NCBI GenBank assembly: GCA_021018995.1
Contig: CM037596.1
Location: forward strand, 11,545,501 to 11,609,500
DNA length: 64,000 nt
Origin: Chloranthus sessilifolius
Lineage: Eukaryota > Streptophyta > Magnoliopsida > Chloranthales > Chloranthaceae
Direction of reading: 5' to 3'
Position numbers and translations under genes: made by a program. The notes below the pieces were generated by a model. That model was given only the letters and a program-made list of their open reading frames with translations, searched no databases and was not told the DNA's origin. Shown here one piece after another: positions 291 through 63,420 of this stretch (position 1 is the first letter of the stretch; every line of letters starts with the position of its first letter).

Positions 291-468
291 AAATTCGACT
301 GTCGAAATGCAAATTCGACCATCGAATTTTCTATAAGTTTCAAACCAGTTTTCGGCCAAAAACAGAACCTGAGAAGTTCTGAGAAAATCGACCATCGATT
401 TTAAAATCGACCATCGATTTTCAAAATCGACCATCGAATTTGAAATCGATGGTCGAATTTATCGATTT
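291..468. repeat. Palindrome cluster A1 (TCGACCATCGA type)
   Basis: Six or more short words of the form AAATCGACCATCGAATTT, its reverse complement (TCGATGGTCGA), and one TCGACTGTCGA are spaced by about 15-60 bases. The same words recur at 3361-3530 inside the LTR of this element and nowhere else in the window. The cluster sits just upstream of the accessory ORF. Confidence 0.85.
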
Positions 469-742
469 AAGTTTGGGGGTTTAAAATTTTTGGCATTTCG
501 GTTTTCTGTTTTGGGGGTTTTGAGCTTAGGGTTTTGAGGGGTTTCGGATGATTTGGGGATTTTAGAGCTTCCTCTTCAATTTTATGCCGCATTCCAAAGG
601 GGATTCACTACATTTCACAAGGGGAGCATATTTACATCCTTGCAAAACCGATTTGGGGCATTTTCACAAGGTAACCCTTGCTCTATTCTCTGTGCATCCC
701 TATTTCCTTGTATTTTGTGGGTTTTCTCTTACATTTGTTTGA

Positions 743-2043
743 ATGGGCCCTAAGAAGCAAACACCCATTAGAAATCCCACCTCAAAGCGACCGGCTTCTA
801 AAGCTGCGTCTACAAGCCGCACAAAACAGCCCACAGCACCACAGCCGGCTCCACCACCCACTGTCTCCCCCTTGCCTGAGCAACCCAACGATTTTTGGAG
901 CATTAAAGGCTTCACGACAGAATATTTATTTCACCCAGAGTTGTTTGACCAGCAAACGACCACACAATGGGCGGGTGAATACCTTGAAAAGGCCAAATTG
1001 ACCTCCCTGTGCACATCCTTTAGCGACCATTTCTATCCCCGACTCGTGCGTCTATTTTATCAGCACATGAGCCGCGAAGACGGGAAAAGAATCTATACAG
1101 AGATTGATGGCCGCGATTATACCTTTGATCTAGAGGACATGGCTGTGGCATTGAGATACCCTTTAAATCACTCACAAATGATGGGATTAGGTCCTCCTTT
1201 TCCCAAACCGCTGCTTCAAGATGTAATCACGAGATGACGCAAAGGCCGTCATTATGGGTCCCAGAATCCATCGTCATGGTCCATATGGAGACCATGTGGA
1301 TCTTGGATAAAATTTTAAGACCACCCTTTACCCTTTTGGTCATCAATCTGAGCGACCGTCCCCTTCAACAAATTCTTATGCGGCCTATAAGGAGCGATGG
1401 TTTAGTGCTCCTGAAATCCTTTTTAAAGGGATTATCAAAGCCCGAGAGAAAATGGGCAAACATGTGAAGAAACCATTGAAGACAATGCCCTATGCTCGCA
1501 TAATTTCAGTGATGATTGAGAACTACCGAGCGGGCCCTGCTTATGATATCCCTCCTACTGAACCCAAATCCACAGCGGGTTCAAAAATGTATAATTTGGT
1601 CAATTGGGGTCAAACCTACAGTAGGCTGGTAAAGACTCCAAAGGATGCAGAGGCACCTGATACCGCTAGTGATGATGATGAGGACCCTACTCATTCTATC
1701 CGCACCTCCTCATTTACAGAGTGACGTTCTTACACTCTCCGAGTTCACCCGACAGATGACCGCCATGACCCATCAGATTCAAGAGCTCACCCACCACACC
1801 AGCTCTATGCGTCAGGAGTTGGATGTCCATGGCGGCGCCCTCTCTTACTTGATGCAGCACGCGTTTCCAGAGGATTACACTACGTATATGGCTGATATCC
1901 GTGCTTCAGTATATTTCCCTTCGACATCGGGCGCTGGTACTAGCATGCCTTCTACGGCCAGGGGGGATACGGGTGATTATGATGCTGCTGCGGGTGATGG
2001 TACTTCGGATCGGGCGGGTCCATCTTCTGCCGGGGATTGTTAG
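743..2043 (+). pseudogene. Accessory ORF of element A, putative plant transposon protein family (PF20167-like)
   Basis: A reading frame starts at 743 with a Lys/Pro/Ser/Thr-rich head of about 50 residues. A conserved block follows with WSIKGFTTEY, YLEKAKL, YPRLVRLFYQHM and EIDGRDYTF (to 1237). The frame then breaks. It resumes around 1345-1724 in another frame with the block FKGIIKAREKMGKH and an acidic DDDED stretch. It shifts again to a third frame ending at 2043 with a coiled-coil-like QMTAMTHQIQELTHH segment and a Gly/Ser/Asp-rich tail. The order and motifs match the accessory ORFs at 34391-35537 (minus) and 63508-64000, so the frameshifts are decay rather than separate genes. The domain name is my recollection of a plant family often found in gypsy elements; its biochemical role is unknown to me. 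Confidence 0.75.
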
Positions 2044-2604
2044 TATACTTGGGGGAGGGGGTACTGCTTTCTTTTATGTTGTTATGGGTCTGTATTTATT
2101 TACAGCTTGGATTATTTAGGACCTGGTGGTCCTTCTTTTGTTATCTTTTATCTTTTCTGTCTGTTACTTTGCTCTGGATATTTTGCCTATCTTTGTTTGT
2201 ATATAGTTCGGTTAGATACTTGTTTCATCTTTTGATATGCATGTTGAATCTCTATGTGCATTGCTTTTGTTGGTACTTTGGTATCTGCTTCAGTTAGATG
2301 CTTGTGTGGGTTTGCTCTATGTCATTTTTGTACTTCCTGTTTCTTTGATAGCTTTTCATTCTCTTTATGGCTTTCATGCGTCACTGTACATCGGTCTCCC
2401 GACACGTGACCCTTGGGGTGTGGGTATCCATGTACGGATGCAATCCACTATGGTCTTTTAATGCCACATGCAGTACATCCATGTTACTACGGATCCCATC
2501 CCTTGGCTTGCGTGCCCTGTGGGATCGACACACGGTGTTCCATGTTTTCTCTTCTTTTATTGTCTGGTGTGTGTTATGTTCAATTTTCGCGGACGAAAAT
2601 TCCT

Positions 2605-2617
2605 AAGGAGGGGTGAA
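2605..2617 (+). other. Polypurine tract of element A
   Basis: AAGGAGGGGTGAA lies immediately before the LTR start TGTAATATCCCC. It is preceded by CGGACGAAAATTCCT, a stretch that also precedes the 3' LTRs of elements E and C. It is the expected primer site for plus-strand DNA synthesis. Confidence 0.8.
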
Positions 2618-3360
2618 TGTAATATCCCCGATATTTTAAACCTATTTTTGTTTACCTCGATAAGCGTGCCCAAAAATAATTATGATATTTTATGAGCTTT
2701 TTAGTTAGTTTTGGTTATGATGAGGGACATGACCAAAGGATTTAGTTATGAGGTGTGTACAAGTCAAGAAATCAACGACGTACACAATAACGTTGGTATT
2801 TGTGTTTAACACCGGATAATGTCTAAACTTAAGTAGATAAGTAGTAATTGTAATATCTAGATTTTTAGTAGGTTTTGTTTATATTATAAAGAGAGAGAGA
2901 TTTGAGAGAATTTACACTTCTCTCTTTCGATTGAAAACAAATTGCAAAACTTTTGGGCTGCTTGTGATCTTGAGATTGTGAGAGCTCCTCTTCCCATCTC
3001 AACCATTGGTTTATGTGGTATTTGAAATTGGATCAGTTTGAGATATTGGAAGAAAAGGTTAGAGGAGAGGATATCACTGATTGATAGGATCTGTGCAATG
3101 GAAGAAGGGTTATATGAGCTGACTTGAAACTTAAAACCTTCAATCATGGAAGCTTGTTCCGGTGCGTGAATCGGTACAAGGGGATCAACAGATTAAGCTA
3201 CAAGAGGTATGCCTTGCAACCTCCTTATATAAATTTATTTGGGTTTTGTTAAGAAATTAAGATTTGGATTCAATAGAAAGGATTAAATGGCTGTGTAGAA
3301 AATGATGAAAAGAATTCGGGCATGTAGAATGAAGCGACCACAGAGCGAGAATTCATGCCG

Positions 3361-3530
3361 ATTTTAAAATCGACTGTCGAAATTGGAAATCGACTGTCGA
3401 ATTGGAAATCGACAGTCGAAAATGAGATTTTTAGTTTGAAACAGAGTTCTGAAATTCGATGGTCGAATTTAAAATCGACCATCGAATTTCAAATTCGACC
3501 ATCGAATTTGAAATCGATGGTCGAATTCTG
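3361..3530. repeat. Palindrome cluster A2 inside LTR
   Basis: This cluster has two TCGACTGTCGA words and one TCGACAGTCGA, then TCGATGGTCGA and TCGACCATCGA words, each about 11 bp plus flanking A/T and alternating in orientation. It uses the same words as cluster A1 before the accessory ORF. Confidence 0.85.
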
Positions 3531-4380
3531 TCCAGCTTCTGGCTTTTAAAATTTTGATTGGATTTTTGTTTTGTGAGCCTTTGGGTTAATTTTTGGGTTG
3601 TATATTAACACTAAGGGTGTTAATATATGTAGGTTTTGGTCAATTGGGAGTCCTTGGAGAGGACTGCTTGTTCATGCTTTTGAATTTGCTTGGTTAAGGT
3701 AGGGGAATCCTAATTTTTATTTGCATGAATTATAAGCATAAATTGTCATAAATCAGGTTATTTTTAGAAGCATGAAATATAGAAATTTCATTATACACAG
3801 TGAAATTAAAAACTTTGAACATATGATACAATCCGAAAATTTGTAAACCTTATCATGAATAAGAATCATTGGAAATCAGAACCTCAGTTAACTTTTGAAT
3901 CAGAACCTCAGTTAACTTTTGAATCAGAACTTTGAAAAATTAGTATATGATATGAATAATAAGCTTGGATATGTGTTAGCATTTGCATTTGATTTTGGGT
4001 TCATAAGTACGATGCCCTAGATTCCACCAACCGTGTTGACGGTAAAACTTTGGCGCAAGTTTCCCTCATAGCGTAGGAGCTTGTTGCATTTTCGAAATGG
4101 GTTCATGAACGACGATGGTCAGTAGGGTCTTCCCATCGGTCACGTAGTCTGCTCTCATGCTATAGGAAATTTGGGAGATAAAATTAAGTTATAAATTTAA
4201 GACAAGAAGCATGCTAAATCAGAACATTTTGAACACTTTAGATTTTATGATCAGTTTTGACTCAGGATTAGAACTGGAGATTTAATTTGAAAAGCATCAT
4301 TGAAAAACCATATTTGATCCGATTCCGTCTTTTGAAAACCTTTACTTATAAGAAATGCAAATAGATCTGTCTTCCCCTAT

Positions 4381-4423
4381 TGAGCTTGGCTGTTAGCTCA
4401 CCCTCGACTATACGTCACAGGTG
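4381..4423 (+). promoter_or_regulatory. Conserved LTR box (GAGCTT..GTTAGCTCA..CTATACGTCACAGGTG)
   Basis: A segment of about 43 bp is nearly identical in four LTRs that otherwise differ: here, 7467-7510, 12142-12185, and 30081-30124 on the minus strand. It lies 400-500 bp before the LTR end, in the transcribed R/U5 part. Its function is not known to me. Candidates are an RNA processing or packaging signal, or a polyadenylation region. Confidence 0.7.
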
Positions 4424-5453
4424 CGGAGACTGACCTTGGGTCAGAGGATCCGGAGGACTCCGATTATATTCCCGAGGAGGATTTGGATATACCAGCTGAG
4501 GAGTTCTTCCCGTGATCTTAGATTTTCTATTTTTGGTATTTTGTCTGGATATTATTTTGGATTGATGAGCCTTAGGCTATTATTTTTGATCTTTTGATAT
4601 CACTCGAGGAACCATTATTGTGAACCTCTATTTTAGGTGATCGGATTGGCCATCACCGGTGGTTCCTTTTGGTTCCTCACAGTGATATATCTAATTTTGT
4701 TATATGAAGCTTTTGTTTTTGGATTAACAATGTTGCCTCTGTCTTTAGACCTTTGTTTATGTTGTCGGCTTCTGTTTGTTACGGCTTATTGAGAAATCAA
4801 TAAGTTGATGAACCGGGCTTTCCTATACCTTAGGGATTGGAAAAGTCGGGTCGTCACAATTGGCTGCTAGGAATAGTTTGATAGTTGTATATCATTCTTT
4901 ACTTTCTGTAATTTGTTTATTTTCATTATCGATTTTTTGACTTGGATCTAAGATAGATCCCGTGGTTTTTTCCCAATTGATTTTTTCACATAAAAATATT
5001 GTGTCTACCATGTGATTGTCATATTTATTGTCTACCTTGTTAGATGGGTGAACATCCCTACCACTTCTAGGACATTTACACAAAAGTGTATGTGTAACAT
5101 CCCAAAATGTTTTTGAAACCCGTAAGTCTTGATCAGGTGTGTGTATATTAAGAAACGCGTCACCCTTTCAAAATTTTCAAACGAGATCGTTTCGGGTCCA
5201 TTTGAGCCTCGTGCAAGACTTTTGGATCAAAGCTCATTCACTGCGGTGGTGTATTGGCTTAACACCAAAACTCATGTGACCGTTGGTTTGGGTGTGCAAG
5301 CTCCACACCGAACCAAAGATCTTTTGGTGTAATAAGGTACACCTCGCTTAAGTGTATATGTTTCACACCGGAACAAGTCAAATGGATAAGACTAAACACC
5401 CAAATGGGTGTATGTGTTTCGTAAGGGAAACAACCCCTTTTGATATAAAAAGC

Positions 5454-5460
5454 AAAGCTT
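5454..5460 (+). promoter_or_regulatory. TATA box of 5' LTR (element E)
   Basis: TATAAAA in the context CCCTTTTGATATAAAAAGC is kept in the 3' LTR at 10166-10173. It lies about 360 bp into the LTR, as expected for U3. Confidence 0.65.
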
Positions 5461-5994
5461 CCATTAGAAGCTATTAGCCGTTTGCAAACTTTGGGGGTTT
5501 TAGGTTTCTAGAGAGAGAGAAGACAGAGGAACTTGGGGAGTTCGCCTGTATACATCCCAAGCTCGGATTTTCTCCGCGGAAGTCACTGAGTTTCAACGCA
5601 ACGGAGATCCGTGAAGAAACGAAGGTTATATCCCTTCAAACCCTCTTTTGATTTGCATATTTTAAAGTCCCGAAATCGGTGGATCTCGCAAGGGTCTTAT
5701 CGCGCATTATAAGGTGAGTTTAAGCTTTGATCGAGTCCGATACGAGTGCTGAAGGTTGGGCTCTCAGACTGTTTCATATGAAAGAATCGACGCTCGATTC
5801 CCACTCGAAATACGTGATGAATGCGTGATTTAAAAAGGTGAACAGTCTCTTATATTTTTAGATCAAATTAATGTTTTAATGTGATCTTAGATGTTTTAGA
5901 CTTGGATTAACGGGCGTGTGAAGAAAACTAATGAAAATCCTTTGAATTTGGAGAAATTGAACCATGGAAGAAGAAGCCCGAAGGGCTACAGAAT

Positions 5995-6195
5995 CTGTTG
6001 AAATCGAACGATCGATTTGTGAATCAATCGATAAATTTTGATAAGACTGAGCAATGCAGAATTTCTAAAGGAATAGAACGATCGATTTGAGAAAATCAAT
6101 CGATCGAGTTTGAAATCGAACGATCGATTTTGAAATCGATCGATAAAGTCCGACAGAGGTGTTAGTTTCTAAAGGAAATCGAACGATCGATTTCC
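5995..6195. repeat. Palindrome cluster E1 (ATCGAACGATCGAT type)
   Basis: Repeated AAATCGAACGATCGATTT and AATCAATCGATCGA words lie in both orientations. The matching block in the 3' LTR (10738-10930) has a different number and set of words, so the cluster has gained or lost units since the two LTRs were identical. Confidence 0.85.
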
Positions 6196-6799
6196 CCAAT
6201 TTCTATTTTGTCAGTTTTCTTTGGAAAAACTTTGGGAAACTTTGAGCAAATTTGTTTTTCGCCACTATTGACACATAATATGATCTTAATGTGCTCTAGG
6301 TTAAGAACTAGAGACTGCATATGAGGACCTTTGGATCGCTTTGAACGGCTCTTAATTTAAGGTAGGGGAAACTCACTACCAATTATATTTTTTACTGTGA
6401 TTCATAGATATCGTAATATAATTAGTTTTTGTTTTCGATTCATAGGTTCTCATGATATAATTTGAGTGCGTTGAATTTGTGATTTAAGTTTGGAACCTTG
6501 AATTCTTTGAAGAGTGTTGAACATCTGAACTTGAAATAGGGACTTGAGATTTTGGTATGAATTGGCACTTGCAATTTACATATTTGACTTGAATCATCAT
6601 TTAGTATGAAATTCGTAATTAGAAAGTATTTGATCAATTGGAAGTTAGGAATCATCGTCTCGTACATGAACTCTTTGGAAGATGGAACTTATCGAATTAA
6701 GAGTCAGAGTTTAAGACTTGAATCTAAAAGTGAATTAGAGTCTGTTGATTTGATTGTAGTTGTGTGATGGAAACCCTTGAACTTTGAATCCTAACATAG

Positions 6800-6960
6800 G
6801 ATTAGTGATACATAAGTGGACTGGTACGGTGATTATCCATACACAGTGTACAATGCATAACATACATAAGTGGACCGGTACGGCGGTTATTCGTACTCAA
6901 TGCATAGCATGCATAAGTGGACCGGTATGACAGTTATCCGTATGCATTGCATAGATTACA
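6800..6960 (+). repeat. 45-bp tandem repeat in LTR (GGACCGGTACGGCGGTTAT)
   Basis: Three to four units of about 45 bp carry CATAAGTGGACCGGTACGG and TTATCCGTAC..ATTGCATA. Related units occur in the 3' LTR at about 11540-11640, and a degenerate form is present in the LTR of element C near 32430-32510. Confidence 0.7.
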
Positions 6961-7466
6961 TAAGTGAACGATGTGAACTTGTGAGTGTAGGGAATGATGT
7001 GAACTTGTGAGTGTAGTGAAAATAGTGAACTTGTGAGGAAAGTGAATATAATGAATGGTGGATATTAGATCATTGAAGAGTGAATGAATGAATGAATAAA
7101 TGAACTCCTTACACATCGAATAATAGATATGGAATCATTGTGCAGTGAATGATGGAATCCAAACTCTAAACATCAAATTATTGAATAATGTATAGTGATT
7201 AGGAAAATACGAGAGTTTGTTTTGTTATCAAGTCGTTTCTCTGTTGTTTGCATCCATTTCAATCCTTGAATACGTGCATTATTTCTGCTTCTATTTTTTT
7301 CATTGAACACATACTCTGCTTCAGCTTTTAAATTCATTGATGAATCTCTACCTTGTTTCAGCTTTTGCAGCTGGCAATGAATTTATTTCTTATTTCTGTT
7401 TTGAAATCTATCTTTGATTCTATGCACTCACATGATGAGATATAACTGTTATTGATTTTTCTTCTA

Positions 7467-7510
7467 CTGATCTTAGACTGTTAGCTCACCCATACTATAT
7501 GTCACAAGTG
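7467..7510 (+). promoter_or_regulatory. Conserved LTR box in 5' LTR of E
   Basis: This copy of the box described at 4381-4423 carries small changes (CATACTATATGTCACAAGTG). Confidence 0.65.
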
Positions 7511-7913
7511 TAGTTCTTGATCGGGACCTTGGACTTGAGGAGAATCCAAGTTACCTACTAGAGGGAGAAGCTGAATTGGATTTGGCACACTGACTTATGA
7601 GATTTGAGCTTGGTACATTATAGAGATTCAGTCTTTGTACATATTTATATACCACTGTTTTGGATGATGGTTGGCCATCATTTATGGTTTTTTTTAGTTC
7701 TTTCGGTCATGTGTCTATATAGAAACGAAATATTTAATTATTCTATGATTGCTTTGATTTTCATAATATGTGTGAATGTGCCAAGTATTCTGTAATCAGA
7801 TTGTGTTCTGCGATCTGACAGTCCGGATTTTTTCCATTTGGTTTTTTATTTAAAGAAAAGAACAAAAATATATCTCAGAGAATTGTGTTGGGAAAAATCT
7901 GGGCTGTCACAGT

Positions 7914-8004
7914 TGGTATCAAAGATATGGGATTAGATCCTGTGTACGATATCAGAGCGGGTCAACTGTGACACTAGGTGTCATAATTGGTATCAGAGCT
8001 TAGG
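7914..8004 (+). other. Primer binding site region of element E (duplicated)
   Basis: TGGTATCAAAGATATGGG begins 2 bp after the LTR end (7914-7931). A second, better match, TGGTATCAGAGCTTAGG, lies at 7988-8004. TGGTATCAGAGC is the usual plant site complementary to initiator Met-tRNA. The intervening 56 bp look like a local duplication, leaving one decayed and one clean copy. Confidence 0.7.
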
Positions 8005-8224
8005 CTTTAGGTCTTATGAGAGACTCAGAGTTATAGCTCTAAGTGCATAGAAATGACAGTAGGTTTTGTCGGAGTCCGAGCTTTAGATTTTGTGGGAGAC
8101 CCGAGGGATATGAATTTAGGTTTTGTCATAACGTAGGGAACATAGAAAGATCACTTTTGATTAAGGCTTTGGATCTTCACGATCACTTTTGATTGAACCT
8201 TTATGTTAAAAATGACAGATCAGT

Positions 8225-9369
8225 ATGGCCCCACGTGTTAGAGGAGGTAGAGGCAGACCGAGGACGATCTGCATGATTGATGTTCTTGAAGGCGAGGGAA
8301 CTTCGCGTGGCGTAGGAATAGCCACTGGTCCTCATACCATTTCATTGGGAGGTAGTGATAGTGGTAGTGATAGACATTTGTTGGAGATCATGGCCAACGC
8401 AATGACACAGCAGACGACATCCATGGCACAGCAGATTGAGCTACTAGTGGTTAGGCAACAACCTTAAGGATTGTTAGAATTTAGAAAGATGTGTCCTCCG
8501 AACTTTTCGGGGTCAAGTCGATCCACTTGAGGCCAAGAAGTGGTTGAACGAGATGAAGAAGATCTTCAGTGTGCTTCCTTACACTGAGTTTGGGAAAGTG
8601 AGATGGGCAGCCTTCAAACTGGATGGAGAAGTTGATCCCTAGTAAAAAGTAGTTTGGAGGGATAGGGTGCAAGAGATCCCGAATGCACCGTAGACTTTGG
8701 CCCAGTTACTGAGAATTTTAATGACGAGTACTTCCCCAACGTAGTGAGAAATCAATAGGAAGTCCACCTTATAGAATTGAAACAAGATCGGATGAGCGTC
8801 CGCGAGTACGGGACCGAATTTACTAGGCTTTAGAGGTTTGCACCTCAGTATGTTGCTACAGAGTTGATGAAGACCAAGAAATTTGAACGTGGCTTGCGGC
8901 CTGACATCCACAGAGTTGATGAAGACCATTGAGCTAGGAACGTATGCAGTTGTAATGGCCAAGGCCCTTATTGCCAAAGAAGACATTGAAAAGAAATATC
9001 AAAGAAAAGAGCAGAACTAAAAGGACAGGACAAGTCAGACGTGATCTTATTCTTCCGAGCAGGCAAGCAAGGAACCGAGACTGCTAATGCTCTCATCTAG
9101 TCAACCTGCTCAGACTGCCTACTCGAGACCACCCGTGCCTATGTCTTCGAGACCTTTCCGCCTTTCAAACCCGACTGTGGCTATCGTGTCAAGGGTGCAA
9201 CAACCTTCCCGCACCACTTTATCAGCATCGGTTGAATCATACACACGGTGTGAAAAAAGGCATAAGTCTAACGAATGTTGGTGGGCTACGGGGGGAATGC
9301 CTTAAATGTGGACAGATTAGACATCGGATCAGAGATTGCTCTAACATAAGGAACAAAATGACAACATAA
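8225..9369 (+). pseudogene. Decayed gag of element E
   Basis: The frame starts MAPRVRGGRGRPR at 8225 and stops at 8467. Gag-type blocks then continue in shifting frames: PPNFSG, KWLNEMKKIFSVLPYTEFGKV, a KQDRMSVREYGTEFTRL-like stretch, and GLRPDIH. They lead to a CCHC zinc knuckle, CLKCGQIRHRIRDC, at about 9298-9339. This is the usual chromovirus gag order (capsid, then nucleocapsid knuckle). Several stops and at least two frameshifts rule out a working protein. Pol does not follow: the sequence passes straight to 3' noncoding DNA. Confidence 0.8.
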
Positions 9370-9673
9370 GTGACTACTCAGAGGCCTCTTAAACCACAGT
9401 GATGCCCAAACCACAAGTAGGTCACAATCTTAAGAGTTGGGTTTACACCTTGTAGGTACTCAGTGTCTCCAGCATTTTGTATGAGCTCCATGAGAAAATG
9501 GACATCTTTGGTGTAAATTTCAATGAACCCTACACTTTTGTGGTAATAGTGATTAGCCCTTGTAAATGAATGGTTTAGATTTTTTTATGATAATGGTTTA
9601 AATGTTGAGACGATCTTTAGCGGGCGATTGGTAACAACCAATTATTAAGGTACACACCAAAAGTAATAGGATA

Positions 9674-9814
9674 AATTTTCGAGGATGAAAATTCCTTTGA
9701 GGAGGGGAGAATGTAATAACTCTGATTATTTTCGTTAATATTGAATTGTACTCGTATCTTTTCGAATACAACACGTAAATTTTCGAGGACAAAAATTCTT
9801 TAAGGTGGGAAGAA
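9674..9814 (+). repeat. Doubled polypurine tract and LTR-start junction
   Basis: AAATTTTCGAGGATGAAAA, then TTCCTTTGAGGAGGGGAGAA and TGTAATAACTCTG, lie at 9674-9728. A second version lies at about 9775-9820: AAATTTTCGAGGACAAAAA, then TTCTTTAAGGTGGGAAGAA and TGTAACATCCC. The second is the real 3' LTR junction. The first looks like the PPT plus the first bases of an LTR from a related element. Confidence 0.7.
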
Positions 9815-10737
9815 TGTAACATCCCAAAATTTTTTTGAAACCCATAGATCCTGGTCAGGTGCGTGTCTGTTAAGAAACACGTCGTCATTTTGGGTTTTTC
9901 AAACAAGATCGTTTTAGGTCGGTTTGAGCCTCATGTAAGACTTTTGGACTACAGCTCATATGCCGCGGTGGTGTATTGGCTTAACGCTGAATCTCGTGTG
10001 ATCGTTAGTTTGGGTGTTTAAGCTTCACACCGAACCAAAGATCTTTTGGTGTAATAAGGAACACCTCGCTTGGGTGTATATGTTTCATACCGGAACAAGT
10101 CAAATGGATAAGACTTAACTCCCCATTGGGTGTTTGTGTTTCATAGGGGAAACAACCCCTTTTGATATAAAAAGGAAAGCTTCCTTTAGAAGCTATTAGC
10201 CGTTTGCAAACTTTGGGGGTTTTGGGTTTCTAGAGAGAGAGAAGAAGTGAGAGGAACTTGAGGAGATCGCCCATGTACGTCTGAAGATCGGATCGGGTCC
10301 GCTGACTTCTCATGGTTTGTGTGTCGTGAGAAGTCACTGATTTCCGACGCGACGGAGATTCGTGAAGAAATGAAGGTTTTATCCCTTCAAACCCTCTTTT
10401 GATTTGGAAATTTCGAAGTCCCGAAATCGGTGGATCTCGCAAGGGTTTTGTTGCGCGTTATGAGGAAAGTTTAAGCTTTGATCGAGCCCGATACGAGCGC
10501 GGGAAGTTGGGCTCTCAAACCGTTTCGCATGAAAGAATTGACGTCCGATTTCCGCCCGAAATATGCGACAAACGCGTGATTTAAAAAGGTAAATAATCTC
10601 TTATATTTTTAGATCAAATTAATGTTTTAATGTGATCTTAGATGTCTTAGACTTGGATTAACGGGTGTGTGGAGAAAAAGTATGAAAATCCTTTGAATTC
10701 TAGGAAATTGAACTAAGGACGAAGAAGCCGAAGGGCT

Positions 10738-10930
10738 ACAGAATCTGTCGAAATTGAATGATCGATTTATGAATCGATCGATCGATTTTGACAAAACTAA
10801 GAAATGCAGAGTTTCTAAAGGAATCGAATTATTGATTTGAGAAAATCAATCGATTGAGTCTGACAGAGGTGTCAGTTTCTAAAGGAAATCGAACAATCGA
10901 TTTGGAAATTGATCAATCGATTTCCCCTGT
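10738..10930. repeat. Palindrome cluster E2
   Basis: ATCGATCGATCGAT, AATCGAACAATCGATTT and AAATTGATCAATCGATTT words occur here. One block present in E1 (about 6105-6150) is missing and another (about 10895-10925) is extra relative to E1. Confidence 0.8.
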
Positions 10931-12141: not shown

Positions 12142-12185
12142 CTGAGCTTAGATTGTTAGCTCATTCTGACTATACGTCACAGGTG
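12142..12185 (+). promoter_or_regulatory. Conserved LTR box in 3' LTR of E
   Basis: This copy has CTGAGCTTAG, GTTAGCTCA and CTATACGTCACAGGTG, almost as in LTR A. Confidence 0.65.
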
Positions 12186-12595
12186 TAGTTCTTGATTGGG
12201 ACCTTGGACTTGAGGAGAATCCAAGTTACCTACTAGAGGGAGATGTTCAATTGGATTTGACATAGTGATTTCTGAGATTTGAGCTTGGTACATTATAGAG
12301 ATTCAGTCTTTGTACATATTTATATACCACTATTTTGGATGATGGTTGGCCATCATCAGTGGTTTATTTTAGTTCTTCCGGTCATGTGTATGAATAGAAA
12401 TGAAATATTTAGTTCTACAAATTATGCTATAACTGCTTTGATATCCACAATATGTGTGAATGTACCAAGTATTCTATAATCAAATTGTGTTATGCAATCT
12501 GGCAGTCCGGATGTTTCCCATTTAGTTTTTGGTTTAAAGAAAAGAACAAAAATATATCTCAGAGAATTGTGTTGAGAAAAATCCAGGCTGTCACA

Positions 12596-27054: not shown

Positions 27055-27079
27055 GGGTGTTATTATTCAAGCTAAGCAC

Positions 27080-47002: not shown

Positions 47003-47039
<37 letters not shown>

Positions 47040-53982: not shown

Positions 53983-54846
53983 CTAAGCGTAGAACCGTCG
54001 GACGTATCTAGCGTTGATGGGCTCAGGAAGATGATCTCTGTCCATGGTGGCAAGGCGGATGGTGTATCCCGGTAGCACCTCTCGAACAATATAAGGTCCT
54101 TCCTAGTTTAGCTTAAACTTTCCTCTCGGATCGGTGTGGAGGGATGGGAAGATCTTCTTCAACACAATGTCTCCTATCTTTAGATCTCGACCGCGGACAT
54201 GTTTATTGTAAGCGCGTACGATTCGCCCCTGATAAACTTGAGTGTGACACAAGGCTAGGAGTCTTGTCGCCCAACAAGTTCAATTGGTCGAAGAGGGATC
54301 TCTCTCTCTGCTTTGAGTAAGCTTGATTCCATAAGAATTCGGAGCAAGGGTACTTTAACCTCTACCAGTATGACGACCTCAGTTCCATACACAAGGGAGA
54401 ATGGTGTTGCCCCTGTAGCGGTACGGATCGACATTCTGTAGGCCCACAAAGCAAACAATAGCATTTCACTCCAATCTCGATAAGTGACGACCATCTTCTC
54501 TAGGATGCGGACGACTGTCTTGTTCGCAGCTTCCACGGCTCCATTAGTTTGAGGTCGATAAGGTGACGAGCGATGGTACTTTATCTTGTATTGCTCGCAG
54601 AAGGCTCGGATGTGCTTATTCACAAAGTTTATGTTGTTATCTGTGATAATATCCTTGGGTACTCCAAATCGACATACGATATTATTTTTGAGAACCTTCT
54701 CGATGTGACTGGCCGTGATGTTGGCATATGATGCTGCTTCTACCCACTTGATGAAGTATTCAATGGCGACGAGGATGAACTTATGCCCGTTTGATGCTTT
54801 CAGATTAATCATTCCGACGACGTCAAGGCCCCAGGTAGAAAATGGC
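53983..54846 (-). pseudogene. Tat-lineage integrase, N-terminus cut by element F
   Basis: The minus strand starts STWGLDVVGMI at the border (first catalytic Asp in LDVVG). It continues KASNGHKFILVAIEYFIKWV, DIITDNNINF (second Asp), YHRSSPYRPQTNGAVEAANK (with the catalytic Glu) and WAYRMSIRTATGATPFSLVY. A frameshift near 54255 leads to RIVRAYNKHVRGRDLKIGDI, LHTDPRGKFKLN, a stop in place of Trp, then EGPYIVREVLPGYTIRLATM and PINARYVRRFYA with a stop at 53983. The KASNGHKF and RFYA signatures point to the Tat lineage. Confidence 0.9.
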
Positions 54847-56164
54847 TGATCAGTGCCAAAATGTGACTAATTTTCGCATCTTAATTCCTACATTTAGCTA
54901 ACCGATGAAAGCATCTGATGGCTTTTATGTAGTTTTAATTATTACAGGTGTTTCTAACCGTTGAATCTTCAAAGAGCTTAAAAGAGAATAATTAAAGGTT
55001 ACTCAGGAGCATTGGACCAAGAAGTCAAAAGAAGCATCAAAGTAGCTCAACATCCACCAGGAAAATGAAGACTCTACCCCTATGTGTCAATCGATTGAGA
55101 ACCAAGTGTCAATCAATCAAAAAGATAAGACAGTTTTGCCCTTTCTTATTTTGAATTTGAAGTCAATCAATTAAGAAAGAATTCTCAATCGATTGAGCCT
55201 ATGAGAGAATTGTTTTGCTCGCCCCTATATAAACAAAGCTACAACTTAGGGTTGAGGGATTTTGGCATTTAGAATTATTCTCTCTTTTTCTTTTAGGATT
55301 TTCTCTGGGTAGATTGTACTTAGGCTTTTACATTTCTTTTTTTTTTACAGTTTATAGGATCATAGATTGTATTTAGGAAAAGCATTGTAAAGAGATCTTT
55401 GGTGATAAATAGAAAGTACATATTTAAGAGAATGGCTTCGAGTTTACAACGAGATCGCACACCAAGGATGAGTGACTAAATCATTTGTTCAAGGATGATG
55501 CGATCCCCAGATAAGTAACATTTTTATGATTAACTCCACAGTTTCGTAATTTCATCATGAAATCATTCTGCTAAAAAGTGTGTTTAATTGAATATCTTTT
55601 GAATACTTTATTATGACCGTTGATCGAGGTTATCAACGATCATAATCGCTAGATCTATACCTACAGGCCGATCTAGGTTGTAGAGTGATTATATGTTCAT
55701 GGTCGTGATTTAAGAATCTTGAGATACGCTATGCTTTTTATATTATTCATACTGTAATGATAGGTTGAGTCATCATTTTTAGATAGGGATGCCGGATCGA
55801 TGATCACGTTTTCTTACGATTCATTTTCTAGATAAATGATAGTGTGATTAATGTGTTATGGAATTGTGGGTTTAATGGTAGAAAGATTACAAATCTGGGG
55901 TAGCAAATTTCTTGATCATTCCTAAAATTATCCCTTTGTTTATCAGAAATTATTCTTGCTCAGATTAGTTTATTTTTCTTACATCTAGAATAGGGTGGTA
56001 ATTATTTGGCAAATCGAATTTTCTCCCTTGGTACTTTCTTGGGTGTTTTAAATCTCTTTAAGGATTAATTAAATTTCACGTTTCTTTGTGGGTTCGACAC
56101 CTTTGATTTTACCGTGCTACAACCGATCTTATGCACTTGCAAGAGTACATTTTAAAACCGACCA
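54847..56164 (+). repeat. 5' LTR of element F
   Basis: It starts TGATCAGTGCCAAAATG right where the Tat integrase frame breaks and ends AAAACCGACCA, 6 bp before the PBS. The length is 1.3 kb. TATATAAA at 55226-55233 marks the promoter. ATGGC (54842-54846) would be the target duplication, whose partner is outside the window. Confidence 0.82.
55080..55210. repeat. Palindrome cluster F1 in LTR (TCAATCGATTGA type)
   Basis: GTCAATCGATTGAGA, GTCAATCAATCAA, GTCAATCAATTAAG and CTCAATCGATTGAGC lie about 35-45 bp apart. Confidence 0.8.
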
Positions 56165-56170
56165 AGTTTT

Positions 56171-56188: not shown

Positions 56189-56244
56189 AGCGGCAAAATT
56201 TTTATAATTTGGAAAGAGATTTGTGTGAATTTTTTTTTACTGTC

Positions 56245-57150
56245 AATCAATTGAGAACTCTTCTTCAATCGATTGACTGAGTGTTGTGATTATTGATTGC
56301 TGATTTATCAATCGATTGATCCGAAAGTATCAATCGATCAACTGTGGTGGGTTTTAATTTATAAAATTCTAACAAAGTAAAATCCGAATTTTGAATTTTG
56401 GACTTTTGAAATTGTGAAATTTGGAATTTCGATTTTATTAAATTTTAAATTTTGAAATTTGAAATTTGAAATTTAATTTTTGAATTTCGAATTTTGAAAT
56501 CTGGAAATTGGCATTTTGATTTTTTATTTGCAAAACTTTCTTTTCCCTATTTTCTTTTCTTTGGAAGGATTTTTGTGGAGTTCTTTTAGGAAGTAGATAA
56601 TTTTTAGGATTTATTGTTTAGGATTTAAAAGATTCTCTTTTCTTTCCCTCCTTTTAGGTATTGTAGGATTTTGTGGGATTGTTTTTAGATTTTTAAATTT
56701 TATATTTTGAAGTTCAAATCTTAATTTTGATTTTGAAATTTGATTTTTGAATTTTGAAATTTAAAATTGTAATTTTAATTTTCAATTTTTGAAATTTTAA
56801 ATTTGAATTTTTATTTTTAAATATTAAATTTTAAGTTTGATTTTGAAATTTAAATTTTGATTTTCAAATTTTAATTTTGAATTTTTGAATTTTGAATTTT
56901 TTTTTTTTTTTTTAAAATGATTTCTTTTACTAGCTCCCGTTCACTATAGAAATCAATCGATTGACAATTCTGCGTCAATCTATTGAGTCTGGGATACCAT
57001 TTGCCAGTGTGCACTGTGAAATTTTTGGGACTATCAATCGATCGACATTTCTCTGTCAATCGATTAACTAATCCTCTGTTGTGTGCTATTTCAGCTGTAA
57101 TTTCTGTGTGTTTTGTATCAATCAATTGAGACCACTGCCTCAATCGATTG
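56245..57150. repeat. Leader of element F: palindrome clusters F2 and F3 and a TTTGAAATTTGAAAT array
   Basis: Palindromes GTCAATCAATTGAG, TCAATCGATTGA and ATCAATCGATCAAC lie at 56245-56345, and TCAATCGATTGAC, TCAATCGATCGACA and TCAATCAATTGAGA at 56945-57150. Between them (56376-56900) is an AT-rich imperfect array of AATTTTGAAATTTGAAATTT words with no coding capacity. Confidence 0.82.
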
Positions 57151-57208
57151 AATCTGAAGTTTGTGGGATTATTATGGATTCATTAATCCTTGTCGTGGGT
57201 GCTAGTGC

Positions 57209-58980
57209 ATGAGCTTTACTCGATCTCATCACCCACATCTACAACCGTTGAATCGTGAAATTGAAAGGTCTTGCAAAGAAAATCGTAGAACCCAAAGAAT
57301 TCAGTATCATCATGCTAAAACCATGGCAGATTAAAGGTAAGAGAGGAATGGAAACAATCAAAATATTAATAATAGAAATAATAATCATGATGAGGGCCCA
57401 AGAACAATAGAGTATTACAATGATCCTGGTTTCTACGAAGATTAGGATAGTATCATGCATGCCCCCATTCCAGGAAACTATTATGAATTCAAATATGCGA
57501 TGATTCAAATGTTACCGATTTTCCATGGATTGTCCAATGAAAATCCACATGTTCATTTAAATAAGTTTACTAGGGTGTGTAAAATGTTCAGAATTCATAA
57601 TGTCACCGACGAGATAGCTAAGTTAAAACTTTTTCCCTTTTCTTTAAGGGATAAGGCAAAAACATGGTTCTATTCCTTAGAATCACAATCTATCCAAAGT
57701 TGGGCAGAACTATACCATCAATTCTTAAAAAAATATTTTTTCATGACCAAAACCATTAAGTTGCGTCAGAAGATACAATTCTTCTCCTAACAACCTACAG
57801 AAATATTTTATGAATGTTGGGAGCGCTTTAAGGAATTAATCAAAAGTTGCCCTAATCATCAACTTCTAAGGTGGCAACAAGTCCAAAGTTTTTGCAATGG
57901 ACTAATTCCAGAAGAGAGGTGCATGGTTGATGCTTCTTGTGGAGGATCAAGTGCCACAAAAGAGGCTGACGAATTATGGGCATTGTTTGAGAAGTTATAC
58001 CAAACCTCAATACAAAATGAGACATTGGGACGAACGAACCTAGATGTGGTAACCAAATCTCATGTGTTGACTAGAGATGGACTTTACAATGTCAACAATA
58101 ATTCGTCAGATCTATCAACAAAAGTTGATATATTGTCTAAACAAATGAACATGTTGATAGCTACAACAAAGCAAGCTAAAACGCCCATCACCCCCACTAC
58201 GTGTTCGATTTGTGACCACCCAGGTCATATGACCAATGAATGTCCAACTACGCTGTCATTCTTTCCTGATGAACCTACTCCTCAAGAGCAGGTGAATGTG
58301 ACTCAATCTTATCAGCGACAGGATAGAAATATGTACTCCAACACATACAGTCCGGAATGAAAAAATTACCCCAACATAGGATGGGGAGGATCAAACTAAA
58401 CTGGATAGGTGAACCAACAGTACAGATCCAACTCAATGAATGGACAACAGAACTTTCGTCCACAACAGAATTCTAATTTTCAACAGAATTCTCCTTATTA
58501 TCATCCAAACTCTGAGTTCTGCAAAAATCAGAATTTCAATAATAAGTTAATCAATCTCAAACTACCGCTTCGAAAGATTCTAATTTGGAAGAGAAGGTTA
58601 TGCGAAACATGCAAGCTTTCCAACAGATGATAATGGACCAAGTCAGCCAATTGACTAATCAATTGAGTCAACGAGAGGAAGGTAGGCTTCCTAGTCAACC
58701 CCTCAACAATCCTCGAGGTCAAGCATCACTTGATGAAGGACCATCGAATAGTCAACAATTGAAGGCTGTTACCGTGTTGAGAAGTAGGCGAGCAATTGAT
58801 AATCAAGTTACAATGCCAATGGAAGTGAAAAAAAAAAAGAAAAAGAAGCGGCAAAATACAAAGAACCAGAAAAAGAAAAAGAGAAAGAGTCACCTCAAAT
58901 TATCCAACAAGAACCTAAAGAAGAACCAGAACTTGAATCCAATCCCTATATTCCAAAGGCACCATATCCTGAGTGCCTGA
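57209..58980 (+). pseudogene. gag of element F
   Basis: The frame starts MSFTRSHHPHLQPLNREIER at 57209, with three early stops (two near 57332, one near 57445). The capsid-like part follows: MLPIFHGLSNENPHVHL, LFPFSLRDKAKTWFYSLES and AELYHQFLKKYFF, a stop at about 57788, then YECWERFKELIKSCPNH and VDASCGGSSATKEADELW. A CCHC knuckle, CSICDHPGHMTNEC, lies at about 58201-58242. A Gln/Asn-rich stretch follows. After a frameshift near 58545 comes a helical MQAFQQMIMDQVSQLTNQLS segment and a Lys-rich end. This is the usual Athila-type gag. Confidence 0.85.
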
Positions 58981-58994
58981 CACCTCCTTCTAAA

Positions 58995-59761
58995 ATGGGG
59001 AAAGGACCGTCAAAAATGAAGGAAAATTTTGAAACATTCAAACAAGTAAAGATAAATCTTCCATTACTTGAAACAATCAAGCCAATTCCTGAGTATGCTA
59101 AATTTTTCAAGGATCTCTGCACCCGTAAGAGAAAGGCACATACTCAAGTGTCTAAGAAGGTGTTCTTGACTAATCAGGTCAGTTCGATATTGCGATTGGA
59201 TGCACCACAGAAACTGAAGGACCCTGGAGTTCCAACTGTTTCATGTGTCATAGATGGGCAACCAATTGGTAAGGCATTACTGGATTTGGGAGCAAGTGTC
59301 AACCTGAAGTCATACTCAGTGTATGAGAAATTAGGACTAGGCGAATTGAAACCCACGACAGTTACACTCCAACTAACTGATAGGTCAGAAAGACGACTCA
59401 GGGGTATCATTGAAGATGTTTTGGTTGGAATACAGTGGACTTTGCTATTTTGGATATGGAAGCACCTGTTAAATCAACAAATCAAGTACCAATCATTCTT
59501 GGACGTCCGTTCCTCGCAACCGCTAATGCCTGTATTAACTATCGCACAGGAGTCATGGATGTTTCTTTTGGAAACATGAAAGTCAGACTCAATATATTTT
59601 ATGCGATGAACCACTTTCCAAATGAGGATGAGGTTGACTGTTTCTATATCGAACAGGTGGATGAAGTAGTGGACGAAGCTTTGCCGTCAATGCTGACCAA
59701 AGAAGAATTCAAAACTGCTTTATTGGCCATCTATGAGGAGAAAGGAACTGAAAAGAAATAA
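58995..59761 (+). pseudogene. Protease of element F
   Basis: The frame from 58995 reads MGKGPSKMKENFETFKQVKI, PIPEYAKFFKDLCTRKRK and VSCVIDGQPIGKALLDLGAS. The last segment holds the aspartic protease active site as DLGA, normal for Athila. KLGLGELKPTTVTLQLTDRS and GIIEDVLVG follow. A frameshift at about 59430 moves the end, FAILDMEAPVKSTNQVPIIL, GRPFLATANACINY, to the frame that ends at 59761. The active site is kept; only the frameshift and the stop after KGTEKK break the gene from RT. Confidence 0.85.
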
Positions 59762-59995
59762 CCAAAAGAGAAGAGGTTGACTTCATCAAGTCAAGATGAT
59801 AAGTCATGCGAGACTGAGACTAAGGTGGAACCATTACCCATTGAGGCAAAGGGTGAGTTGACACCATCAATCAGGTAACCACCAACTGTTGCATTGAAGC
59901 AGCTGCCTGAGTCACTCAAATATGCTTTCTTGGGACCTTAAGAAATATTTTCGATAATAATTTCATCAATATTATAGAAAACACAAGAGCATGAA

Positions 59996-60990
59996 TTGTT
60001 GAAAGTACTTAAGAACCACAAAGAAGCTATCGGATGGACCTTAGCCGATCTTAAAGGAATTGATCCATCAGTATGTATGCACAAAATATATCTGGAAGAT
60101 GATATTACACCATCGAGGGAACGACAAAGGCGACTTAATCCTAACATGAAAGAAGTTATTTTAAAAGAGATTATCAAGTTACTCGATGCTGGAATCATTT
60201 ATGCGATCTCTGATAGTGAATGGGTAAGCCCAATTCAAATAGTTTCCAAACAATAGAGAATTACAGTAAAAGAAACTACTGAAAGAGAATTAGTGCCTGC
60301 ACCTGAGACGACTAGATGGCGTGTATGTATCGATTATCAAAAATTGAACACCGCCACGAGAAAGGATCATTTTTCCTTGCCATTTATTGATCAGATTCTA
60401 GAAAAGTTGGCAAGACAAGAATATTATTATTTTCTTCATGGATACTTGGGATACAATCAAGTACCTGTGTTTCCATCAGATCAAGAAAAGACAATATTTA
60501 CTTGCCCTTATGGTACCTTTGCTTATCGAAGGATGCCTTTCGGACTTTGCAATACACCGGTCACTTTTCAATATTGTATGTTAGCAATATTCTCGGATAT
60601 GGTTGACAAATTTATGAAAGTATTCATGGATGACTTCTCAGTTTTTGGGAAGACATACGAAATGTGTCTTAACCATTTGACACAGGTATTACAATATTGC
60701 GTAGAATCTAATCTTGTCTTAAGCTGTGAAAAGAGCCATTTTATGGTTCAACAAGGAATTTTGTTGGGACATATCGTTTCCAAGAAAGGAATTAGAGTCG
60801 ACAAGGCAAAAGTCGACTTAACTGCTAATTTGCCACCACCAAAGAGTGTTCAACAAATTCGATCATTTCTGGGGCATGCGAGATTTTACAGAAGATTTAC
60901 CAAAGATTTTAGCAAGGTCGCCAAGCCACTGTGCAACTTGCTTGGAAAAGATGTTCTGTTTGAATTTGATGAGGAATGCATGAAAGCCTT
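59996..60990 (+). pseudogene. Reverse transcriptase of element F
   Basis: Blocks in order: VLKNHKEAIGWTLADLKGI, RERQRRLNPNMKEVILKEII, WVSPIQIVSKQ and a stop at 60254, then WRVCIDYQKLNTATRKDHFS, LPFIDQILEKLA, FTCPYGTFAYRRMPFGLCNT and FMDDFSVFG, the catalytic box with both Asp. LGHIVSKKGIRVDKAK and IRSFLGHARFYRRFTKDFSK close the thumb. The box FMDD is the normal Athila version of YxDD. One in-frame stop is the main defect, so this is one of the best kept enzymes in the window. Confidence 0.9.
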
Positions 60991-61440
60991 CCTAAAACTA
61001 CGCCAGTTGTTATTAAATTCACTGATAATCCAACCACCAGATTATTCACTTCCTTTTGAACTCATGTGTGATGCATCGAACTATGCTATTGGAGCAATAT
61101 TAGAACAAAAGATAAACAAATTACCTCATGTGATCTACTACGCCAGTAAGACACTGATTAATGCACAACTAAATTACACCACCACCGAGAAGGAATTGCT
61201 AGCTGTGGTATATGCATTGGATAAATTCCGTTCTTATTTGCTCGGATAAAAAATAATAGTCTTTTTAGACCACTCTGCATTAAAATATCTGTTGGCAAAA
61301 GAGGACACAAAACCAAGATTGATCTGATGGATCTTGCTTCTCCAAGAGTTCAACTTTGAGATCAAAGATAAAAAAGGGGGTCGAAAATGTTGTAGCTTAT
61401 CATTTGTCATGAATTTTACCTGAAGAATCATTTGTATCTG
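60991..61440 (+). pseudogene. RNase H of element F
   Basis: FELMCDASNYAIGAILEQ carries the first Asp and TTEKELLAVVYALDKFRSYL the Glu. After a stop at about 61247 the frame continues with IIVFLDHSALKYLLAKEDTK (third Asp). It then reaches LLQEFNFEIKDKKG, with a second stop before it (at about 61325) and a frameshift after it. Confidence 0.85.
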
Positions 61441-61474
61441 AGACCATCCGTGACACCTTTTTGGATGAGCATTT

Positions 61475-62724
61475 ATGACAATCGATGCTACAGTTACAAA
61501 AGTTCCTTGGTTTGCTAGTATCGTGAATTATTTGGCCACTGGCAGAATCCCTACGCAATGGGATAAAAATGATAAGAATATCTTCTTCTCTCACATAAAA
61601 TATTACTTTTGGGATGAACCACAGTTGTTCAAAGTTTGTTTTCATATCAAGTCATCTGAAAATGTGTACCTGAAGAAGAGCAACTGAGCATCATAGATTT
61701 CTGCCATGCTGGGGCCTGTGGAGGCCATTTCGGAGGATAAAAGACTGCACAAAAAATTCTTCCAAGTGGATTTTACTTGCCCTCCATCTTTCGGGACACT
61801 GTAAAATTTTACATAGAGAATCAACGAAGTCAACAGCTTGGAAATATTTCAAGACGAAATATGATACCACTGAACCTGATTTTGATTGTTAAAATTTTCG
61901 ATGTATGGGGGATCGACTTCATGGGTCATTTTCTCCCATCATTCAATTATTTATACATTCTGGTGGCCGTTGACTATGTTTCAAAATGGATAGAAGTTGT
62001 GGCAACCCGATCAAATGACCATATAGTGGTCAAATTCTTGAAAGAAAATGTGTTCAACAGATTTGGGATTCCAAGAGCAATCATTAGTGATGGCGGTTCG
62101 CACTTTTGTAATAGCCACTTTACCACTATAATGAGGAAATACGGCGTCACCCACAAGGTGGCAACGTCATACCACCCGCTGACTAGTGGTCAAGTAGAAG
62201 TGTCCAATCAAGAGATCAAACGAGTTTTAGAAAAGATTGTGCGACTAGATAGGAGAGATTGGTCGAATCGGTTATCTGATGCTCTTTGGGCATATCGTAC
62301 TGCATTAAAGACACCGATTGGAATATCGCCATTCAGGATTATATATTAGAAAGCATGCCATCTCCCAGTCAAACTGGAACATAAAACATTTTGGATTGTA
62401 AAAAGATTTAATATTGACATACAAAAGGCAGGGTCCAATCGAAGGCTACAACTGAACTAATTAGAAGAGCTACGCTGTGATGCGTATGAAAATTTGAAGA
62501 TGTACAAGGAACGGTACAAAAAGTTGTACGATCAATCAATTTCTCGGAAGGAGTTCCACTTTGGACAAAAGGTTTGGTTGTTCAACTCCATACTTAAGCT
62601 CCATCTAGGAAAATTGAAATCAAGGTGGGAAGGACCATTTCAGGTTGTATCCATTACCATGCATGGTGCGATTGAGATTAGAAGTCTTAAGGCAATCGAA
62701 CTTTCAAAGTGGGCAACGACTTAA
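61475..62724 (+). pseudogene. Integrase of element F
   Basis: The N-terminal part reads PWFASIVNYLATGRIPTQWD, YYFWDEPQLFK and a CHAGACGGHFGG-like patch. The zinc-finger Cys pair is lost (the place reads [10 protein letters not shown]). The core frame 61777-62349 shows [13 protein letters not shown] (first Asp), [17 protein letters not shown] (second Asp), [19 protein letters not shown] (Glu) and [18 protein letters not shown]. After a stop at 62349, a frame at 62494-62724 supplies [29 protein letters not shown] and [10 protein letters not shown], the usual C-terminal domain. The D-D-E residues are intact. Confidence 0.88.
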
Positions 62725-62879
62725 ACCAATGTTTGAGCCAATGACCCAGATGAGGATTGAAGTGATGTACCTCAGTGACTCGGATAAGTGATAACCAAAC
62801 GGTTGAGCTGTCGACTCATAAACACAGCGCTTCCTGGGAGGCAACCTAGTGTGTTTTGTTTTTGTCTGTCTTTATTTTT

Positions 62880-63420
62880 GTTAAAAATAGTCGTTCTCAA
62901 TCGATTGATTTTAGGAAAGTCAATCAATTGAGAATCATCAAGTCAATCGATTGAGGTGTCTGTCATCATCATCTCTCATTATCAATGGTATGGTCATATC
63001 ATTCAGACTGCATTCCTGTCAATCGATTGAGAGTCCAATTTCAATCGATTGATAACACCTCGACATGATGGCCTATTTTCATAAATCGGAGCGTCAATTG
63101 ACACATCTTTTCGATTGCAGCTAATTTAAGGGGTACTTCACTTCAATGTCAATCGATTGAGACTAACCTCTCAATCGATTGACTTGATTGCCTATTAACT
63201 CTGCCAGTTCCCAAGGCACCTAAACATCGCGACTTTTCGCAAAAAGGCTTGTTTCAATTGATTGACAATACTATGTCAATCGATCGACATAAAGAGTGCA
63301 TGAATGAGTTGTACCACATCACATCCACATTCCAAATGCCCATTAAAGTTCATGCGGCGTGGTGGAGATCAATCGGTCTCAATCGATTGAGGAACATCTC
63401 TCAATCGATTGACAAGATGA
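62880..63420. repeat. Palindrome cluster F4 before the accessory ORF (TCAATCGATTGA type)
   Basis: About thirteen copies of TCAATCGATTGA or one-base variants, arranged mostly in pairs such as TCAATCGATTGAGAGTC..TTTCAATCGATTGATAA, over 540 bp. It is the densest cluster in the window. It uses the same word as the LTR and leader clusters of element F. Confidence 0.9.

Follow-up and report, generated by a model that had tools for sequence, protein, structure and literature searches.

Largely element-own palindromic words in two-turn arrays beside accessory genes: candidate operators for a self-encoded protein in long terminal repeat elements of Chloranthus sessilifolius

The stretch of the Chloranthus sessilifolius genome analysed here (assembly GCA_021018995.1, contig CM037596.1, positions 11,545,501 to 11,609,500 of the forward strand; 64,000 nucleotides, hereafter the window) contains several transposable elements, denoted A, C, E, F and Tat, in which copies of a short dyad-symmetric word are clustered. 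The words are largely element-own. In A, C and F one array precedes an accessory gene and another lies within the long terminal repeat (LTR), with neighbouring sites most often 19–23 bp, or two turns of DNA, apart. We consider it probable, with modest confidence, that every element has an operator array of its own, recognised by a dimeric DNA-binding protein encoded within that same element. The binder would most likely be the product of the accessory gene; by sequence comparison, A, C and F have homologous accessory genes, which form one family around Pfam PF20167 (Transposase_32).

The initial annotation had assigned palindromic words to particular positions in each element, and exact counts and shuffles bear this out, the words being near-absent elsewhere in the window. 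All nine exact copies of TCGACCATCGA (element A) lie within the two clusters of A, the clusters of C hold every copy of CGATCGATCGAA (two) and CGATCGGTCGAA (three), and the seven copies of GGCGCAACTA all fall within the stretches of Tat; ATCGAACGATCGAT (E) occurs three times and TCAATCGATTGA (F) 16 times, with 14 copies in the stretches of F, one in those of E (10846) and one at 31499. The chance expectation is 0.00–0.035 occurrences per word (200 dinucleotide shuffles) versus the 2 to 16 seen. The word-by-element matrix is near-diagonal: distant sites of one element share words and different elements differ, as the annotation had claimed. The F word has perfect symmetry, whilst that of A, TCGA-N3-TCGA, has an asymmetric centre and occurs on either strand (six copies one way round in the window, three the other). 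When only perfect 8-mer palindromes are sought, F is accordingly detected (8), C barely so (2) and A missed (1). A further palindrome, ATACGTAT, is present in 10 copies at 18739–19348, 21647 and 26806–27146, on both strands and within GTATCGG-rich sequence; we class it as an unassigned palindrome-rich repeat.

When neighbouring sites no more than 60 bp apart were considered, gaps of 19–23 bp accounted for 199/228 in A, 67/106 in C and its relatives and 13/15 in F, and for 19/29 and 29/31 in G1 and G2, two families found through their accessory genes (see below); C shows further spacing peaks near 40, 60, 80–85 and 100–108 bp. Under an alternative handling of overlapping sites the shares were 164/233 (A), 51/81 (C, five loci), 3/3 (E), 13/15 (F), 19/29 (G1) and 29/31 (G2). 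Random placement within the same spans matched the observed count in none of 2000 draws for each of F, G1, G2 and A. With two turns per step, neighbouring sites face the same way on the helix. The linkers of F, G1 and G2 are 31–42% alike, as against 86–95% for the sites, so it is the distance that is kept and not the sequence; linkers are more similar in A (0.74) and C (0.51–0.52). Genome-wide, 22,664 pairs of F words lie within 30 bp of each other, 18,872 of them with exactly 10 bp between; for the reversed pattern both numbers are 0.

These spacing data bear on the view that the arrays are functionless tandem duplications or minisatellites, which we regard as very improbable. The rather similar linkers of A and C, the 76–89% likeness of the two A arrays when aligned, and the finding that the sites of A are no better kept than its other positions (see below) would be compatible with such an origin. 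It sits poorly with linkers of near-chance similarity at fixed spacing in F, G1 and G2, with the ten-base interval that dominates the genome-wide F pairs, and with the distribution of the 33 F sites, none of which is in a coding region.

Element A (plus strand) enters the window with an array at 291–468, carrying TCGACCATCGA and TCGACTGTCGA, which is internal and 5′ of the accessory gene (743–2040; broken into pieces 743–1234, 1311–1721 and 1633–2040, and PF20167-like by a profile built from copies of both A and C). The 3′ LTR follows at 2618–4858, beginning with TGTAATATCCC and enclosing the second array (3361–3530). Clustering in the LTR, as first annotated, stands for the second array; the first is internal, because the LTR starts only at 2616–2618, the point from which the 5′ LTRs of two further copies align. 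Pieces of gag and pol were found upstream of the window, and the element has a primer site, TGGTATCAGAGC. Among the A loci, 30 of the 43 listed were retrieved, the window's own copy included; in all 30, both sides of the accessory gene carry sites at near-fixed positions, the commonest words being TCGACCATCGA/TCGATGGTCGA (201) and TCGACTGTCGA/TCGACAGTCGA (85). Random variation of the words among copies of one family, which would have spoken against the annotation, is not what A displays, its places being kept throughout these 30 loci. Two candidate readings of A were rejected. Placement of the accessory gene inside the LTR, raised by two matches on C8 lying 10 kb apart, fails in that the LTR begins after the gene; the two C8 matches resemble each other throughout, the DNA before the gene included. 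Extra conservation of the sites was indicated by a column count over two stretches of ~390 bp, both at CpG positions (0.988 vs 0.863 for 20/12 columns; 0.922 vs 0.788 for 28/6) and at other positions (0.974 vs 0.939; 0.930 vs 0.926). Neither difference was upheld by a pairwise comparison over 4.9 kb, and extra conservation is counted as negative.

Element C is built as A is, but on the minus strand: a partial pol (36273–39285; RT, RNase H and an SH3_Tf2-1 piece, by Pfam) is followed by an array (35775–36050) 5′ of a broken accessory gene (34394–35477) homologous to that of A, and by a second array (33000–33370) inside the LTR. We infer the start of this LTR, near 33,957, from the matches of other copies, which begin at query positions 1813, 1816 and 1820, and from the local sequence. 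A genome search with a C protein piece returned at least 150 loci, from which 12 relatives with 54–67% protein identity were picked by eye and 851 bp upstream of each was taken. Words of the form TCGA-N4-TCGA are present in all 12 (2 to 11 per locus) and the exact C word, TCGAYCGATCGA, in 11, L066 having variants only; the A form, TCGA-N3-TCGA, is represented by seven words upstream in these relatives. In eight of the 12 a TATA[AT]A motif lies no more than 80 bp past the last site, a raw count taken with no control.

With the window extended by 9 kb on each side, F proved to be a 14.5-kb element on the plus strand. Its 5′ LTR (54847–56165; sites at 55087 and 55185) is 92% identical to the 3′ LTR (68032–69358, beyond the window), and is followed by a leader array of nine sites (56243–57151), gag-pol pieces (57446–62346; gag, RT and rve domains by Pfam), an array of 11 sites (62897–63412) and the PF20167-like accessory gene (63421–64000), which is broken (pieces 63421–63771 and 63723–64130) and leaves the window. 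Allowing one mismatch, 33 sites were counted over the 14.5 kb: two in the 5′ LTR, nine in the leader, 11 before and eight after the accessory gene, and three in the 3′ LTR, with none of the 33 in the 4.9 kb of gag-pol and none in the accessory gene. A, C and F thus share the order gag-pol, array, accessory gene and LTR with a second array, F having in addition its leader array and the sites past the accessory gene. Domains found across the pieces of the three elements (gag PF03732, RT_RNaseH_2, H2C2 and SH3_Tf2-1) presumably fit Ty3/gypsy rather than Ty1/copia; we provisionally take A and C to be Tekay chromoviruses (given the SH3_Tf2-1 of C and the primer site of A) and F to be a putative Athila. 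The Athila ORF-1 domain (ORF, open reading frame; PF03078) gave no match on the F pieces scanned. Elsewhere in the genome (G000:C1:2899376-2912636) one F-word pair pattern occurs twice, 13,037 bp apart with further pairs between, resembling the two LTRs of a larger element of the F kind. An integrase core piece directly left of F (54258–54866, minus strand) is a remnant of another element.

Arrays in LTRs, and a TATA box past the last site in two thirds of the C relatives, are also what would be seen if the words were host transcription factor sites, borrowed by each family for its LTR and an internal promoter, with the accessory gene a passenger. Element E, which has an array but in which no accessory gene was found (see below), fits such borrowing, and so do the repeated motifs of Sireviruses, for which the available text of their description gives mainly stress-factor sites (PMC2829016). 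We nevertheless judge this explanation unlikely: at least five different dyad words of 10–14 bp with one two-turn spacing would require several host factors of the same geometry, and the words differ among accessory families and are shared by distant places of one element.

Alignment of the A protein with that of C gives 38.8% identity over 183 amino acids (E 7e-41). For the two main accessory pieces of F, a profile combining A and C yields E 4e-5 and 1e-5 (in a set of 1541 pieces) and a G2 profile 1.3e-16 and 1.4e-21, and loci of G1, G2 and a third new family, G3, exceed the PF20167 cut-off in a genome search. The protein of A starts basic (60 residues near the start, isoelectric point 9.7). 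No relative of the A or G1 protein was found at E 0.001 in a large protein collection. The initial annotation's placement of the words next to an accessory gene is upheld for A, C and F; in E no such gene was found, and Tat is weak.

Whether the word follows the protein family can be seen at loci chosen by gene. In the 2.17-Gb genome at least 150 PF20167 loci were recovered, all above cut-off, from 13,855 first-look candidates, with matches in none of 14 control genomes. For 14 loci, picked by eye over the range of match and score, ~1.8 kb upstream of the domain was taken, and in nine of these one perfect 8-mer palindrome occurred at least four times within the 1.2 kb that precede the domain, versus 1/50 control tiles. 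The tiles were drawn from the window and its flanks, leaving out those with known clusters, the post-accessory and 3′ LTR sites of F among them; the single positive tile (five copies) is the ATACGTAT repeat. Three further words emerged from these loci: that of G1, GGACGTCC within ACGGACGTCCGT, in L044, L045, L046, L048 and L051, with two copies in L047; those of G2, TCGATTAATCGA and TCGATGCATCGA, in L052, L054 and L055; and that of G3, CTCGCGAG, in L050, with one copy in L053. The G1 word is kept between L044, L045 and L046 (54–57% protein identity) though much of the upstream DNA no longer aligns. In G1 and G2 the same word recurs downstream of the gene, beyond a purine tract that we take to mark where the LTR begins; the G3 word was not found downstream of the gene within 2.9 kb. 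Where words differ, the proteins are 39% (A vs C) or, on pieces, 36–46% (F vs G2) identical. A/C and F/G2 are the closest protein pairs among the representatives compared, and their words are likewise the most alike, which would look like the outcome expected of joint change in protein and site. On the co-variation of word and accessory ORF, the check proposed with the annotation, nine of the 14 gene-chosen loci have a repeated palindrome upstream and 11 of the 12 C relatives the exact C word, but G3, whose word is not kept, does not fit.

The same loci speak to a role for the integrase or Gag, which might bind the words for integration, packaging or nuclear import, the accessory gene being linked by position alone. 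Such proteins are element-own too, and E keeps its sites with no accessory gene detected. Given that the sites stand at promoters and before the accessory gene, with none in the gag-pol of F, and that the words track PF20167 families in most loci examined, we think this improbable.

Operator arrays for a self-encoded protein remain the reading that we prefer, and a mechanism may be outlined as follows. The palindromes would be double-stranded DNA sites for a symmetric dimer, because the word is dyad-symmetric and unlooped and, where its centre is asymmetric, occurs in both orientations. The fixed two-turn step with free linkers suggests contacts between neighbouring dimers, which would line up along the same side of the helix, with cooperative binding. 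The factor likely belongs to the element, since one word is present in two control regions of an element and differs among families. The best candidate is the accessory protein of the PF20167 family: its gene lies directly 3′ of one array, with the second array in the LTR, it is the gene that the elements share, and the protein of A starts basic. The bound protein would work on two promoters, that of the LTR and that of the accessory gene itself, and would most likely maintain their activity or release them from silencing as VANC does. Activation or anti-silencing is favoured over feedback repression, as the LTR also has an array and by analogy with VANC. Other elements would be spared because protein and word would have changed together.

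A role in RNA packaging, one of those suggested by the initial annotation, is disfavoured: the asymmetric word of A is used in both orientations and unlooped palindromes make poor RNA hairpins, which points to double-stranded DNA. Palindromes might also act as structure, with RNA hairpins or DNA cruciforms feeding small-RNA silencing or recombination, and those of maize Sireviruses have reportedly been linked to small RNAs. We give this very little credence, as a perfect 12-bp palindrome has no loop, the word of A has an asymmetric centre and both orientations, and it is hard to see what a hairpin would gain from sites set two turns apart with unconstrained linkers.

Several observations weigh against pairing of an accessory protein with its own word, or narrow its base. 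Five of the 14 gene-chosen loci fall short (L043, L047, L049, L053 and L056); L043 and L049 hold no word, and L056 has CCACGTGG three times. The L043 protein is 99% identical to that of L044, yet the two share no DNA 5′ of the gene. L049 and L050 share 79% identity across 110 amino acids and align upstream too, but L049 is without the word of L050. The third new word, CCTCGCGAGG, is as judged from these sequences not kept within its own family (L049 and L053), a true counter-case that speaks against strict pairing, and G3 is also unphased, with 0/1 gaps at 19–23 bp. The comparison set consists of loci with the accessory gene and of tiles from the window and its flanks. Because the positives of any one family are related to each other, few families count as independent (two clear, one doubtful), and common ancestry by itself is enough to preserve a word among family members. 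In A, pairwise comparison of copies over 4.9 kb finds the sites no better kept than the rest, at CpG positions (0.859 vs 0.811–0.851) or at others (0.904 vs 0.934 outside).

The protein family brings further points of this kind. The better-kept A copies reach PF20167 at 25 of 45 bits (E ~2e-5), under the cut-off, the broken pieces of C and F alone have no PF20167 match, and G1 is joined to the other families through PF20167 only, profile comparisons being weak. Comparison of PF20167 with solved structures gave no convincing DNA-binding fold (four weak matches). To these are added the two cases with no firm accessory gene. Between the repeats of E no accessory gene was found, with no Pfam domain in the four pieces scanned. 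The Tat word is absent before five other plant mobile domains (PMD), and the match of Tat to PMD is itself weak.

Element E (plus strand) consists of two 2.8-kb repeats that are 84.8% identical, the first LTR-like (5093–7913; array 5995–6195) and the second at 9815–12597. Its word, annotated at both stretches, is exact in the first; the second has a variant array (10738–10930), with 1–2 changes. The sequence of E suggests a short, non-autonomous element whose LTRs are long. Its purine tract, LTR ends and nearby primer-site word (5092–12597) resemble those of A.

The Tat word is unlike the others, being 21 bp long, paired at 47, 48 or 99 bp and present in 9,405 exact genome copies. On the plus strand of the window its pairs lie at 43391–43510 (1 and 2 changes), 46551–46619 (48 bp apart) and 50878–50945 (47 bp apart), with pieces weakly resembling PMD at 48127–49245 (PF10536, E 0.011 and 0.093, under cut-off). 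No LTR pair was found for this element, and its pieces gave no convincing match to the accessory profiles (best E 5 with that of A and C; 0.4 and worse with G2). Given these sequences, Tat appears to be a weak case, and its generalisation to PMD genes is not supported, the word being missing ahead of the five other PMD domains, of which four are probably transposon-borne and one a host gene. Ahead of PMD domains, L063 (594–700) has repeated palindromes of the form GACCGAAATTTCGGTC, possibly the word of a further element, and L060 (1110–1196) has the A word three times, perhaps from an A element there.

Beyond the window, we tentatively propose that several lineages of plant Ty3/gypsy elements form a class with fast-diversifying, sequence-specific DNA-binding proteins of the PF20167 kind, each reading only its own two-turn dyad words in the LTR and the accessory promoter. 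This might constitute a self-recognition, trans-activation or anti-silencing code, a counterpart of VANC with tens of thousands of sites in one genome. If true, it would give the extra genes of plant gypsy elements a testable function, explain why families do not cross-activate, and provide many natural protein–word pairs from which a recognition code could be derived. It would also add a second, separately built system beside VANC by which transposons meet silencing, and would mean that thousands of arrays in one plant genome could be bound by one element protein.

Among known systems, the repeated motifs of the Ty1/copia Sireviruses are palindromic, symmetric, of high copy number and clustered in the LTR before the TATA box (Bousios et al. 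2010, PMC2829016), and in the envelope-bearing HOPIE and Inga they also lie 5′ of the extra gene (PMC2829016). A, C and F likewise have their motif in the LTR and 5′ of an extra gene. Unlike the Sireviruses, with one CGG-CCG core and an env-like gene, they have family-own words and a PF20167-like gene, and presumably belong to another superfamily. The CGG-CCG core is lacking from the words of A, C, E, F and G2, that of G1, CGGACGTCCG, having a partial likeness in its CGG/CCG ends.

VANC of the Arabidopsis VANDAL MULEs (Mutator-like elements) binds a short element-own word that is dense in non-coding parts and rare in other elements (Hosaka et al. 2017, PMC5735166). The present words resemble it in being element-own and non-coding, as the near-diagonal matrix and the distribution of the F sites indicate. 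VANDALs are DNA transposons, whereas A, C and F have gag, RT, RNase H or integrase domains; the VANC21 word, YAGTATTAY, keeps to one orientation, the available text does not call it palindromic, and binding is proven there whilst it is predicted here (PMC5735166). A 2026 paper treats VANC beside sunflower LTR elements, with palindromes unmentioned in the accessible part (PMC12844716).

The accessory genes share a protein family with known Ty3/gypsy extra ORFs (PF20167, Athila ORF-1 PF03078 and PMD), which the available text of their descriptions presents with no DNA word or array and whose roles it states as unknown (PMC6317226, PMC11728184). The 3′ extra ORF of a sunflower Athila matches PF20167 and is predicted to be nuclear (PMC11728184); in sunflower Tekay elements the extra ORFs are located 5′ and give no match to a known domain, in contrast to those of A and C (PMC6317226, PMC11728184). 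MAIN/MAIL1 and the gypsy PMDs constitute a transposon-borne family with host members tied to a ‘DOWN’ promoter motif and silencing (PMC7156037, PMC5418596), a comparison that concerns Tat only, with the weak match and missing word described above. The literature covered, which excludes most subscription journals and preprints, showed no paper connecting a DNA word with a PF20167 gene. Palindromic arrays near extra genes are already known in kind from Sireviruses; the phased two-turn spacing, which is not among the motif features in the available Sirevirus description (PMC2829016), is the new property of the arrays reported here.

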